DNA from: Pseudanabaena galeata CCNP1313
GTDB taxonomy: Bacteria; Cyanobacteriota; Cyanobacteriia; Pseudanabaenales; Pseudanabaenaceae
NCBI RefSeq assembly: GCF_029910235.1
Contig: NZ_CP112874.1
Coordinates: 1,984,001 to 2,048,000 of the forward strand
Direction of reading: 5' to 3'
Length of the DNA stretch: 64,000 bases
Below, in pieces: positions 60,033 through 64,000 of this stretch. Each line of letters opens with the position of its first letter. Positions within the stretch are counted from its first letter, which is position 1. The position numbers and the translations under genes were made by a program. The notes under the pieces are model-generated. The model searched no databases. It worked only from the letters and a program-made list of their open reading frames with translations, and had not been told where the DNA came from.

Positions 60033-60087
60033 AAAATCCAAATAGTGTGAAGTGGAGCGAAGCGCCACTTCACACTATTTGGGTTTT
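60033..60087. repeat. Repeat family E core, copy 3
   Basis: A stem of 23 bp (AAAATCCAAATAGTGTGAAG plus TGG, one G-T-type mismatch) around AGCGAAGCG, preceded by TATAGCTGTAGTCAGTCTTG and TTAGGACATA as in family E. The 59606-60199 gap otherwise holds no gene. Confidence 0.7.
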
Positions 60088-60199: not shown

Positions 60200-61351
60200 G
60201 TGAACCCCATGACAGTGAAAACTAATAAGATCGCTGATGTCTTGATTGTTGAAGATGAACTAGTTACTGCAAATGCACTCTCAGATGTTTTATCAGATTT
60301 GGGCTATAGAGTTTTGGCGATCGTGGATAGTAGTGATAGTGCCATCTCTTTTATTCATAATAATGTTCATCATATTCATCAGAAATTACCAGATGTTATT
60401 TTGATGGATATTAAATTGAGGGGTGGAGATAGTGGTATCACTGCAACTAATGAGATTCATAAAATAGCACCTATCCCCGTAATCTACTTAACTGCTTTTA
60501 GCGATCCTGAGACTTTAGAAAAAGCGATCGATACTTCTCCCTATGGATATCTCACTAAGCCACTGAGATACGGGGAAGTGAACGTAGCAATTATGCTAGC
60601 TTTAAAGAAGCACCAAGAAGAAAAAATATTGCAAGAAGCTTTGGACAAAGAAAAAGATCTGCATATTTTAAAATCTCGGTTACTTGCCATGGCATCCCAT
60701 GAATTTTCCACTCCAATGTCGGTAATTAGATTATTGATTTGGAAACTACAAAACTTTGAAGAGCAATTAACTAAAGAAAGTAGAGCTAAAAATCTTGCTT
60801 CTATTCAGTCAGCAATTAAAGATATTAATTGGTTACTTGAAGAGGTTAAGTTTATTGCTTGTTCTGAATCAGGAAAATTTCCATTTAGCCCTGAAAATGT
60901 GGATGCAATTACCTACTGCCAACAATTGGTTGATAGCTTTCAGACAGAAGATAGTACACGCAAGTGTCGAATTAAGTTTCATAGCCAAGGTCAATGCCAA
61001 AAGTTAAAAGTTGATAAAAAGCTGCTATGGCACATATTTATGAATTTAATTTCTAATGCCATTAAATATTCCTACGAAGGAGGCACTATTGATGTGGAGG
61101 TAATATGTGAGTCCAAGCAATTATTTCTAAGTATTTGTGATCATGGTATTGGCATACCTAAAGAATATTTGAATAATCTATTTTTACCATTCTTAAGAGC
61201 TGAAAATGTTGGCAATGTTAAAGGCTTGGGGATGGGATTGTATATAGTAAAACAAGCTGTAGAAGCTCACTCAGGAAAAATAGCAGTGGAAAGTGAAGTG
61301 AATATGGGTACAAAGTTTACAGTCGTTTTACCTTCAGCAGATAATTTATAA
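60200..61351 (+). CDS. Receiver-histidine kinase hybrid (second copy type)
   Basis: A 383-residue soluble protein: N-terminal receiver (VLIVEDELVTANALSDVL, phospho-Asp in ILMDIKLRGGDSGI, Lys in YGYLTKPLRYGE), a helical linker, HisKA with ASHEFSTPMSV (phospho-His), and HATPase (NLISNAIKYSYEGG, ICDHGIGIP, GLGMGLYIVKQAVEAHSG). The GTG start at 60200 lies eight bases after AGAGG; an ATG nine bases later is possible but too far from that site. It has more AT-rich codons than the kinase at 33778. Its receiver has the EExxxA-type of phosphodiesterase/LuxO-like receivers (VEDELVTANAL). Its partner is not encoded nearby. Confidence 0.88.
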   Translation: MNPMTVKTNKIADVLIVEDELVTANALSDVLSDLGYRVLAIVDSSDSAISFIHNNVHHIHQKLPDVILMDIKLRGGDSGITATNEIHKIAPIPVIYLTAFSDPETLEKAIDTSPYGYLTKPLRYGEVNVAIMLALKKHQEEKILQEALDKEKDLHILKSRLLAMASHEFSTPMSVIRLLIWKLQNFEEQLTKESRAKNLASIQSAIKDINWLLEEVKFIACSESGKFPFSPENVDAITYCQQLVDSFQTEDSTRKCRIKFHSQGQCQKLKVDKKLLWHIFMNLISNAIKYSYEGGTIDVEVICESKQLFLSICDHGIGIPKEYLNNLFLPFLRAENVGNVKGLGMGLYIVKQAVEAHSGKIAVESEVNMGTKFTVVLPSADNL

Positions 61352-61924
61352 AAGTATAATAAATCGATGACAGTAGAAATTCAAAGCTATAATTTTTGTT
61401 TTTATATCTTTAGGAATAACTCTTGAGGATTATTTTTTATCCTTGATTTAAAGCAATAATCTAATAACCCTAGAAAAAATCATAACTTGTAAGGTAGACG
61501 GAGTAAGAATTTCCCACTTTTAGTAAGTTCTTAAGGGTGTAGTAACAGCAAATCGAAAGTGTATTTAACAATACTTTACATATTTAGCAAACAGATGTAA
61601 GGTTTTATGCATGTTAAAAGTCTGTATCAATTTTCCTTTATTACGGCATAAACCATGTTTCCTAAAGGAGGTAACGGCATGACAGAACTAGGGATGAACT
61701 GGAAAGATTAATTATCGACTGCTTACTAGTTGTGAACAACGTGACTAAACTAAAACTTTTTAAAACTCAACGCATATAAAAGTTTGGTCACAAGTTGCTT
61801 GCAAACAGATTATTTACCGTCTCACAAAATTTACTTTGAGTAAGTTTTAGTTAGCGGCATAGACTAACAAACTTGCATCAATACTAATTAGTAAAACTTG
61901 TGAGACCTCAATATTGGAGGTTTT
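61352..61924 (+). other. 573-base structured leader/intergenic region
   Basis: No dispersed hairpin repeat or GCGATCGC octamer lies here, unlike nearly every other long gap. It holds a tiny ORF with a near-perfect Shine-Dalgarno (61655-61711), an inverted repeat GTGACTAAACT/AGTTTGGTCAC (61741-61791, one G-U type pair), a stem-forming GTTAG/CTAAC pair near 61850-61880, and ACCTC pairing with GAGGT around the ribosome-binding site of the SDR gene (61905-61921). It may be a long 5' leader or a separate small RNA. Confidence 0.45.
61655..61711 (+). CDS. Very short ORF with perfect Shine-Dalgarno
   Basis: Reads as 18 codons from the ATG at 61655, or 10 codons (MTELGMNWKD) from the ATG at 61679. 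The second start is preceded by AAAGGAGGT, a full match to the anti-Shine-Dalgarno, with spacing of six bases (AACGGC). A stop is in frame just before 61655. The peptide is not a family I recognise. It may be a leader peptide for the SDR transcript or a small protein. Confidence 0.45.
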   Translation: MFPKGGNGMTELGMNWKD

Positions 61925-62698
61925 ATGAATGTTCGTGGAAAAACAGCTCTAATTACTGGAGCTTCGAGGGGTATTGGTCGGGCGATCGCTTTAGAACTAG
62001 CTCAACAGGGTGCAAAATGCCTAATTTTGGTAGCCCGCGATCTAGAACGCTTAAACTCTGTTGCCTCAGAAGTGGAAGCTCTAGGTATCGAAGCGGTGAG
62101 CTTACCGCTCGATCTATCGCAGACAATCGAGGTAAATATTGCGATCGCCCAAGTATGGCGTGATTGTGGTCCAATTGACATTTTGGTGAACTGTGCTGGT
62201 GTAGCGCATCAATCATCATTTTTGCGATCGCGCCTTCAAGATGTGCAATCCGAACTTGAAGTTAACTTGCTGGGTATGTATGCAATCACGAGAATGGTAG
62301 CCCGACGGATGGCAGTGCAGCGCCATGGCAGAATCATCAATGTTTCTAGCCTCATGGGTAAAGTAGCTGCGCCGACTATGGCAACCTATTCCGCTACTAA
62401 GTTTGCGATCTTAGGATTCACTCAAGCTCTGCGTGGTGAATTGGCTGCTTATAACATTAAAGTATCAGCGTTACTTCCATCGCTTACTGATACAGATATG
62501 GTTCAGGATTTGGAATGGTTTCGTTGGGTGTCCTTGATGACTCCAAAGCAAGTAGCCAAAGCGTTAATCGCTGGATTAAAACATGAAACTCCTGAAATCC
62601 TTGTCGGATGGCAGAGTCATATGGCCGTCTGGTGTCATCGCCTATTTCCATTTCTAATGGAAAAGATCTTGCTAATTGCTGCTCCTAAAGTCGGCTAA
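61925..62698 (+). CDS. Short-chain dehydrogenase/reductase (SDR)
   Basis: A 257-residue classical SDR: cofactor motif TGASRGIGRAIAL, NCAGVAH (variant of NNAG), the active-site Ser in NVSSLMGK and catalytic YSATK (Tyr/Lys), followed by the PSLTDTDM substrate loop. It is predicted cytoplasmic, although the C-terminus (SHMAVWCHRLFPFLMEKILLIAAPK) is hydrophobic and may associate with membranes. Substrate is unknown; lipid or polyketide ketoreduction is a possibility. It has a good GGAGG five bases before the ATG, which can be paired with ACCTC upstream, giving possible translational control. Confidence 0.88.
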   Translation: MNVRGKTALITGASRGIGRAIALELAQQGAKCLILVARDLERLNSVASEVEALGIEAVSLPLDLSQTIEVNIAIAQVWRDCGPIDILVNCAGVAHQSSFLRSRLQDVQSELEVNLLGMYAITRMVARRMAVQRHGRIINVSSLMGKVAAPTMATYSATKFAILGFTQALRGELAAYNIKVSALLPSLTDTDMVQDLEWFRWVSLMTPKQVAKALIAGLKHETPEILVGWQSHMAVWCHRLFPFLMEKILLIAAPKVG

Positions 62699-62823: not shown

Positions 62824-62937
62824 TAACGTGAGTTCGATATAGCTATTTGCGGCGTGCAAAGTACGCCGCAAATGGCGAAAAATGGGAAGAATCGCTAAGC
62901 GATTCTTCCCATTTTTCGCTTTCGTCGAACTGACGTT
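62824..62937 (-). repeat. Family A element, copy 13
   Basis: A full copy in reverse orientation. Hairpin 1 has GGGAAGAATCGC/GCGATTCTTCCC: one T-A pair of the family replaced by G-C on both arms. Hairpin 2 has one unpaired change (GTACGCC). Confidence 0.92.
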
Positions 62938-62951
62938 GATATAGAATGGGA

Positions 62952-63182
62952 TTATTTATCATCAGTAAGGATTGATGCTAATATTTCAGGGGTTAGTCTA
63001 TTACTTGCGGCTTCATCTGCAAGAGCATCCATGCTTTGCATAAGTGATATTCTTTTTAGTTCTTGTTACACTAATAGAGTAAATAAGTATTCAATTTTCT
63101 TTCGTTGCTCAGAATTTATTTTGCTGTACTCTCTAGCAATATCTTCATCTACTTGAATAGCGATCGCTTTTATAGCTTTTGT
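62952..63182 (-). pseudogene. Remnant of a small antitoxin-like gene
   Basis: On the minus strand one frame reads KAIKAIAIQVDEDIAREYSK, then INSEQRKKIEYLFTLLV, a TAA at 63066-63068, QELKRISL, and after it MQSMDALADEAASNRLTPEI and LASILTDDK followed by a stop at 62952. The pattern (an N-terminal strand, an amphipathic helix, and a C-terminal acidic tail) looks like a small cyanobacterial antitoxin-like protein broken by one in-frame stop, and the 5' part has no start codon. A short downstream ORF (62952-63041) might still be translated. It abuts the end of the methyltransferase gene. Confidence 0.6.
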
Positions 63183-64000
63183 CTTGCTCCAATAACGGGT
63201 AAGCCTTGTTTTTCGCGATCGGCAAGTTCTAGATTTAGTTCTAGCAATTTACTCAAAATATCGTCATATTCGCTGAAGCCGTAGGCTTGCAGGACGAGTT
63301 GATCAAGTTTGGCATGGAGTTTATAAAGTTGGCTGGCGGGTTCGTGAAATAATTCGTTGTAGAGTTTGGTGATACCGTATTGTTTTCTCTCCATTTGTTG
63401 ACTGCGATATTGATGAAGTTCTTGCATGGCAGCGCGAATTTTTTCAATGTTTTGTTTCACTTTTTTTGAACTACTTGTATTAATCTGGGGAAATGGAAAA
63501 GTTTCAAAACAGGAGTTATGTGTGTAACTGATACGATCTTCAAGGGTAGACATTTGCGCTTCCATCCAAATTCGATGGGATCTTGATGTCAGAATCCCCA
63601 AAACATAGAAATCTTCACTAGCAACGATTCTGGTTCTCGCATTCGGCAACCACTCACAGGAACAAGGTAAAAAGATCGCCCATTTTGAGGTTTGAGGAAC
63701 TGCAAAATATTGAGAGAGTGATTCTAAGGCTTGGCGCATAGCGGGCCTTTTTTCGCCTAATTGCCACCAATATGTCTGATAAGTCTGGCGGCGGTTAAAA
63801 TCTCTTTCAGGTTTAACTTCTGCCCTTACCCATTGGAATGGTTGGATATATTCACTTGCTTCTTCAATACTCATATCGTTAAAGTCAATAATCCAATTTT
63901 TTAGCCCCTCGTATGGATTTTCCACTAGGTCATTACCTTCTAGAAAAGGACGGATCACCTTATGGTTATCTTTATTAACTTTATTCCATTCTTCTACTTG
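63170..64000 (-). CDS. C-terminal part of MmeI-like DNA methyltransferase/endonuclease (cut by window edge)
   Basis: An open frame runs off the 5' edge of the gene at 64000; at least 276 residues are visible. The sequence fits the C-terminal target-recognition and helical region of a type IIG/MmeI-like or N6-adenine methyltransferase: VIRPFLEGNDLVENPYEGLK, FQWVRAEVKPERDFN, then RTYWWQLGEKRPAM-type QTYWWQLGEKRPA, SCFETFPFPQ and a C-terminal helix pair (LYKLHAKLDQLVLQAYGFSE). The catalytic methylase motifs would be upstream, outside the window. The 3' end overlaps the remnant gene on the same strand. Confidence 0.82.
   Translation of the reverse strand, partial: QVEEWNKVNKDNHKVIRPFLEGNDLVENPYEGLKNWIIDFNDMSIEEASEYIQPFQWVRAEVKPERDFNRRQTYQTYWWQLGEKRPAMRQALESLSQYFAVPQTSKWAIFLPCSCEWLPNARTRIVASEDFYVLGILTSRSHRIWMEAQMSTLEDRISYTHNSCFETFPFPQINTSSSKKVKQNIEKIRAAMQELHQYRSQQMERKQYGITKLYNELFHEPASQLYKLHAKLDQLVLQAYGFSEYDDILSKLLELNLELADREKQGLPVIGARQKL

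Follow-up and report, generated by a model that had tools for sequence, protein, structure and literature searches.

The 573-nt gap (61352-61924) that separates a response-regulator/histidine-kinase ORF (60200-61351) from the gene of a short-chain dehydrogenase (SDR; 61925-62698, plus strand, 257 aa) in Pseudanabaena galeata CCNP1313 contains a structured leader that, judging from sequence comparison, is built of two separable modules: a short upstream ORF (uORF) with a strong Shine-Dalgarno (SD) sequence, locked in position to the putative promoter, and a covarying stem next to the SDR ribosome-binding site. We see an even chance that the SDR mRNA begins in this gap with a 5' leader that regulates the expression of the gene in cis once transcription has started. 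All coordinates refer to the window, i.e., to the whole 64,000-nt stretch of DNA that was analysed. A preliminary description of the window had pointed to a structured leader upstream of the SDR; this observation is confirmed, and the interpretation that accompanied it is partly supported.

By homology, the SDR is of FabG type, with nothing more specific to be said about its substrate. Its ortholog is found in 20 of the 26 genomes of the same genus, the studied one included, with E-values of 3e-147 or lower, and is absent from the other six. The covariance model R1, which covers helices P2-P5 (see below) and was applied with strict filters, finds the leader no more than 150 nt upstream of the SDR gene in all 20 genus members with the gene, 15 of which supplied the training rows of the model, and in none of the six without it; plain DNA similarity agrees with R1 on this genus-level distribution. 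One of the 32 other relatives (G027) also has a match. There is one strong match per genome, located beside the SDR gene, which indicates a single gene-specific element and not a dispersed family; two further weak matches elsewhere (E-value of 0.007 in G017 and 0.09 in G010) are probably due to chance.

The leader is also found in other cyanobacteria. From the best 80 named orthologous loci of a longer list, 67 entered our census, and the 13 Pseudanabaena loci among these 80 were represented by other copies of theirs; additional loci beyond the named ones were included, and some family labels were derived from matching named loci. This widespread leader has no counterpart in Rfam (release 15): neither the window nor any of 9 loci from other strains and families has a match at the gathering threshold, and a permissive scan produces only 8 weak sub-threshold matches. 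No description of the leader was found in the open-licence PMC literature; its parts belong to known kinds, and their combination, together with a constraint on length without sequence, looks new. When the ORFs flanking the SDR gene at 18 loci are compared by eye, none is common to different families, although close relatives do share neighbors (L086 and L089 upstream, L087 and L097 downstream). A contig titled Candidatus Gracilibacteria SU_1_2 (L066) encodes a cyanobacterial-type SDR (73% identity), preceded by the leader with the uORF MLYINLGSALHC; here the label or the bin is probably wrong.

The 336-nt leader, counted from the expected transcription start site, folds with a z-score of -2.6, and 1 of 100 shuffled sequences is equally stable. 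This fold and the covariation of its pairings, which extends across cyanobacteria in the case of stem P3 and across Pseudanabaena in the case of P2-P5, give strong support to the earlier notion that the region is structured and under constraint.

Stem P3, formed by GTCTCAC (61819-61825) and GTGAGAC (61900-61906), both on the plus strand, is the sole helix called by RNAalifold on an alignment of 103 leaders, left from 121 loci after 18 had been dropped by hand (duplicates, loci where a repeat takes the place of P3, a record containing Ns, and uninspected loci). Covariation was examined in a set of 85 hand-picked loci, which omits the near-identical Nostoc leaders L115, L122, L125 and L128, the Ns-containing L084, the Pseudanabaena leaders G008 and G017, loci L045, L049 and L050, and one batch of extra loci, and retains four loci where a repeat has replaced P3. 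In these 85 sequences, 82.6% of the cells of the 7-bp stem are paired, and a double change is seen at each of the seven pairs, reaching 26 sequences, from C-G to U-A, at one of them. For P3 and the 3-bp SD stem taken together, there are 56 double-change cells, compared to 25.4 +/- 4.1 in shuffled alignments (0/500), and the covariation score is 0.291 vs 0.220 (0/500); a slid register leaves 26-51% of cells paired. Counted by pairs, the result is no better than shuffled: nine pairs have a double change, vs 7.5 in shuffled alignments, and 99/500 shuffles reach 9. Sequence by sequence, 43 of the 85 form all seven pairs at the aligned register, 14 form six, and 28 form five or fewer. In an alignment-free duplex test on 95 other loci, the native strands give -13.9 kcal/mol, against -10.4 for strands from mismatched loci and -9.7 for shuffled ones (p = 2e-13 and 5e-15), and 46 of the 95 beat 90% of mismatches; the corresponding energies for the 20 Pseudanabaena are -13.4, -10.3 and -8.0 kcal/mol, with 12 of 20 beating 90% of mismatches. 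Four of the 85 sequences, all from Scytonema/Brasilonema (L071, L078, L081, L094), have, by eye, a TTATCAGT-rich repeat-like sequence instead of P3 ahead of the ribosome-binding site.

Pseudanabaena leaders contain additional helices. The P2 hairpin (61741-61791, plus strand, arms 61741-61750 and 61782-61791) has a conserved loop TCAACGCATATA (61767-61778) and accounts for the long inverted repeat noticed in the preliminary description, GTGACTAAAC(T) / (A)GTTTGGTCAC at 61741-61751 / 61781-61791. The P4 hairpin (61844-61872, plus strand), with loop GGCATAG (61856-61862), is enclosed by P3. The P2-P5 alignment comprises 15 of the 20 Pseudanabaena, leaving aside G003, G008 and G017, which have insertions, and G013 and G022, from which P2 is missing. 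In these 15 genomes, 98% of P2 cells are paired, and three P2 pairs have double changes; for P2-P5 as a whole, 96.8% of cells are paired, compared to 27-42% in slid versions, and there are 23 double-change cells vs 6.1 in shuffled alignments (0/500). The count of further pair types is not above the shuffles (21 vs 22.7, 481/500).

The stem that was said to cover the GGAGG of the SDR gene exists as well, and it would compete with P3. The segment GTGAGACCTC (61900-61909), the beginning of which is the 3' strand of P3, is able to pair with GAGGTTTTAT (61917-61926, plus strand), which consists of the SD and the A and U of the SDR AUG. RNAalifold prefers this hairpin, which excludes P3 and buries both SD and AUG (OFF state, as opposed to the ON state with P3). 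In 17 of the 20 Pseudanabaena, the OFF hairpin can form as 10 uninterrupted base pairs, counting G-U pairs; it is interrupted in G006 and shortened to 7 bp in G018 and 5 bp in G024. When foldings of the 3' domain are forced, ON and OFF are at most 3 kcal/mol apart in 16/20, with wider gaps in the studied strain (4.8 kcal/mol, ON lower), G018 (5.5), G006 (5.7) and G024 (7.6); OFF is favored over ON in four genomes (G002, G014, G021, G022). Pairing that masks the SD and AUG beats 95% of shuffles in 19/20 Pseudanabaena, in 27/135 other loci and in 6/54 Nostoc-type loci, the means of the latter two groups still being lower than shuffled (p = 4e-4 and 8e-4, respectively), which suggests that the switch is a feature of the genus and of scattered others. 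Thus, two exclusive structures, one of them masking the SD, are found in computed folds of Pseudanabaena only, and a translational switch at the SDR start is plausible in this genus.

Masking of the SD throughout the phylum was rejected, as strong masking pairing is confined to Pseudanabaena, and so was masking of the SD by the 5' strand of P3 in the Nostoc type, where 2/49 loci beat 95% of shuffles (p = 0.66). A CCTC-like anti-SD occurs within 14 nt in 46/115 loci.

Translational switches that sequester the ribosome-binding site are known as expression platforms of riboswitches and of ribosomal-protein leaders. The computed Pseudanabaena folds are similar to these in having two exclusive states, one of which hides SD and AUG; the leader differs in that no ligand or protein is known for it and in that, outside this genus, the hairpin that does the hiding is weak at most loci. 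A metabolite riboswitch, with P2-P4 as the aptamer, the choice between P3 and the SD/AUG hairpin as the expression platform, and the uORF as an incidental element, would explain the covarying multi-helix domain with its two conserved loops and the exclusive, mostly near-isoenergetic states. Yet no Rfam family matches, P2 is absent from two genomes, the loops tolerate insertions, and the inner sequences vary between families; we find a riboswitch rather unlikely. What stands of the riboswitch-like leader of the preliminary description is the two-state ribosome-binding site, which is plausible in Pseudanabaena; it has no known ligand domain, and Rfam finds none.

It is also conceivable, but unlikely, that the conserved part of the leader marks the binding site of a protein or of a trans-acting RNA, to which P3 would belong. 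The 5' strand of P3 and its flank (TTTG/GTCTYAC) are indeed conserved in sequence besides pairing, but changes in P3 are compensated, for example, in the 18-bp P3 arm of L089 (by eye), which favors selection for structure over selection for sequence.

The other module of the leader is found near its putative 5' end. A promoter-like TTTACA - 17 nt - TAAGGT (61575-61603, plus strand) has the same spacing in 20/20 Pseudanabaena, and transcription is expected to start near 61610; in other families, TTGCA..TANNGT is seen by eye at the corresponding place. The SD of the uORF, AAAGGAGGT (61664-61672, plus strand), is conserved among relatives and, in agreement with the preliminary description, stands six bases ahead of an ATG (61679-61681). 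The predicted peptide MTELGMNWKD is likewise there; of the 10-18 codons allowed for it earlier, the ORF (61679-61711, plus strand) has 10, its stop codon being at 61709-61711. Pseudanabaena preserve the SD, the ATG and the stop, and mostly the length: there are 10 codons in 17/20 genomes, and 13, 17 and 21 codons in G024, G018 and G009, respectively. The stop triplets are swapped freely (TAA 9, TAG 2 and TGA 4 among 15 distinct uORFs).

Other cyanobacteria often have a strong-SD uORF again, mostly of exactly 12 codons and of varied sequence, such as MLYINLGCSPIH, MSYIHSAKSVRL and MQDISIGSKVTH: 47/56 distinct Nostoc-type uORFs and 32/64 other distinct uORFs have this length. A census of 121 loci under a fixed SD rule gave 98 loci with a candidate and 86 distinct uORFs, of which 45 have 12 codons and 15 have 10; among the other 26 are some that this rule seems to have mispicked. 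For comparison, 2.3% of 1327 ATG ORFs on the opposite strand, of which no SD was required, are 12 codons long. Held-out family f28 (Nostoc relatives), with 50 loci not identical to the discovery loci, 12 of them without a pick and 3 with a known uORF, contributed 34 new distinct uORFs, 26 of them 12 codons long (the others have 6, 6, 7, 8, 9, 11, 14 and 23). In held-out families f16 and f29, 52 loci, 21 of which had no pick, yielded 25 distinct uORFs, ten of 12 codons and five of 11; at least three of these ten (L160, L161, L184) had already occurred in the discovery set, and the picking rule was altered after a first look at these families (6/21 with 12 codons) and kept unchanged thereafter. 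The 12-codon rule therefore has a strong hold among relatives of Nostoc and a loose one in other groups.

The distance from the start of the -10 element to the uORF ATG is 81-82 nt in 20/20 Pseudanabaena, 57-59 nt (interquartile; 52-62 overall) in the Nostoc type, and 52-59 nt (interquartile; 44-99 overall) in the remaining loci, the latter two ranges being partly determined by the later picking rule, which accepts starts only 40-115 nt past the promoter anchor, or about 37-112 nt on this scale. The distance from the uORF stop to the SDR gene varies from 88 to 548 nt overall (139-321 in Pseudanabaena, 88-410 in the Nostoc type, 113-548 in the rest). Tight spacing on the promoter side and free spacing on the other suggest that the uORF keeps its place relative to the 5' end and not to the SDR gene, and insertions in the leader loops of G008, G017 and G003 make the same point. 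A hairpin, P1, which would present the uORF SD, is supported to some degree by the 61 Nostoc-type sequences (-13.0 vs -5.8 +/- 2.4 with columns shuffled, shuffled minimum -10.7), and hardly by the 48 ML-type ones (-2.3 vs -0.1 +/- 0.5, shuffled minimum -2.6).

Codon evolution was assessed by counting changes along nearest-neighbor links between distinct uORFs of modal length (24 of the Nostoc type, 18 of the ML type, and 15 from Pseudanabaena). Changes at codon positions 1/2/3 number 41/33/31 in the Nostoc type, 38/42/47 in the ML type and 12/18/21 in Pseudanabaena, and this roughly even spread suggests that only the start, the stop and often the length are kept. The synonymous share is 15/64 (0.23 vs 0.24 expected, p = 1) in the Nostoc type, 26/68 (0.38 vs 0.29, p = 0.11) in the ML type and 7/31 (0.23 vs 0.25, p = 1) in Pseudanabaena. 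The groups had been defined by how the peptides begin, a choice that favors seeing conservation in the first codons. In codons 2-13 of the SDR gene, used as a control, the changes are distributed 2/4/27, and 27 of 33 are synonymous and 6 non-synonymous (p = 5e-9). None of the three groups shows significant purifying selection on the peptide, which an arrest peptide would require, and no regulatory codon run, the hallmark of amino-acid attenuators, is seen by eye in the uORF peptides. The small-protein gene suggested earlier is rejected by this test, which finds no excess of synonymous changes of the kind seen in the control, and the uORF is probably not such a gene.

The trpL, erm and tnaC types represent bacterial leader-peptide attenuators and arrest peptides. 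Our leader resembles them in having a short strong-SD ORF, and differs in that neither peptide conservation nor a codon run is apparent and the spacing between uORF and gene is free. Translation-dependent attenuation, where stalling or speed of the ribosome on the uORF would set the downstream fold, agrees with the conserved strong-SD uORF placed ahead of structure close to the ribosome-binding site. It appears quite unlikely, however, given the codon test, the variable distance to the SDR gene, a uORF position that follows the promoter, and the 29 nt between the uORF stop and the beginning of P2 in the window; the attenuator of the preliminary description is therefore disfavored, at least in its classical uORF-driven form. 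A functional small peptide, with the structure as a separate feature, is highly improbable: a near-perfect SD, similar first codons within groups (MTEL, MSYIH, MLYIN) and a slight excess of synonymous changes among ML-type uORFs, which is not significant, speak for it, but the Nostoc-type and Pseudanabaena shares do not exceed expectation, prefix-based grouping favors apparent conservation of early codons, and identity of these codons may stem from an RNA constraint such as P1.

In the two-module leader that we prefer, the uORF would be a ribosome landing site at the 5' end. Repeated loading and termination of ribosomes on it may cover the 5' end and spare the long leader from decay; alternatively, the uORF may tune the folding of the leader. 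At the other end, in Pseudanabaena, P3 (ON) would compete with the hairpin that uses its 3' strand to sequester SD and AUG (OFF), thereby keeping the SDR start site open against masking, and whatever stabilizes or opens P3 would set SDR translation. There is an analogy for the uORF: according to PMC8708949, a two-codon ORF in axe-txe acts in cis and may protect mRNA. The likeness lies in a mini-ORF acting in cis, possibly as mRNA protection; in axe-txe, distance and frame relative to the gene are reported to matter, whereas the leader uORF mostly has 10 or 12 codons and is located near the 5' end, hundreds of nucleotides from the gene. What defines a cis-acting mini-ORF, namely, that start, stop and position are kept and the peptide is not, is observed here by comparison, with length looser in f16 and f29. 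A bolder proposal, which we put forward tentatively as possible rather than probable, is that of a widespread 'content-free' leader ORF, in which start, stop, a length of 10-12 codons and promoter distance would be selected and codons would not, the product being ribosome occupancy of the 5' end by approximately one initiating plus one terminating ribosome; the stem on the side of the ribosome-binding site would evolve separately and act as a bistable SD/AUG switch in Pseudanabaena. This raises the questions of whether a bacterial uORF can be selected for length and position and not for sequence, and whether ribosome loading at the 5' end can protect a long leader. As the source of a naturally occurring ribosome-binding site that may be bistable, the leader could also be of use for expression work in cyanobacteria.

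A candidate trigger is light or redox state, suggested by an HLR1-like (RpaB-type) box, TTAACAAT-AC-TTTACATA (61565-61582, plus strand), which overlaps the -35 element of the promoter-like site. The HLR1 consensus and light regulation by RpaB are covered in PMC11633204; the box resembles that consensus at 15/16 positions and is near the putative promoter, and 20/20 Pseudanabaena score 13-16/16 (mean 14.6 vs 10.9 shuffled). It is the only match in the window at up to one mismatch (0.16 expected; 16/100 shuffles contain one), and 41 matches are found genome-wide, against 29 control matches. It differs from the HLR1/RpaB system in that it is a predicted box, shares positions with the -35 and shows no enrichment in other families. 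As an RpaB site, the box is a lead only. HLR1 was rejected as a feature beyond Pseudanabaena, the mean at 168 other loci being 11.0 vs 10.7 shuffled.

Three copies of the hexamer CGGCAT are present in the leader, one ahead of the uORF (61644-61649), one at its start (61675-61680) and one in P4 (61855-61860); relatives retain them only in part. The leader insertion in G008 and G017 matches the hairpin-repeat pattern CAAAATGGCNNNGCCATTTTG, a copy of which is found inside the SDR leader of both; with up to two mismatches, this pattern has 187 forward matches in the studied genome and 136-256 in G003, G008 and G017 (170 in G008 and 256 in G017), and no control matches. Long inverted repeats are seen by eye just 3' of the SDR gene (62846-62873 and 62875-62919) and upstream of the kinase (60038-60082), and are perhaps of the dispersed-repeat kind. 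Further downstream, an ORF on the minus strand (63170-64000), the start of which is outside the window, contains an MmeI-type target-recognition domain (PF20466) and may belong to a type IIL-like restriction-modification gene.
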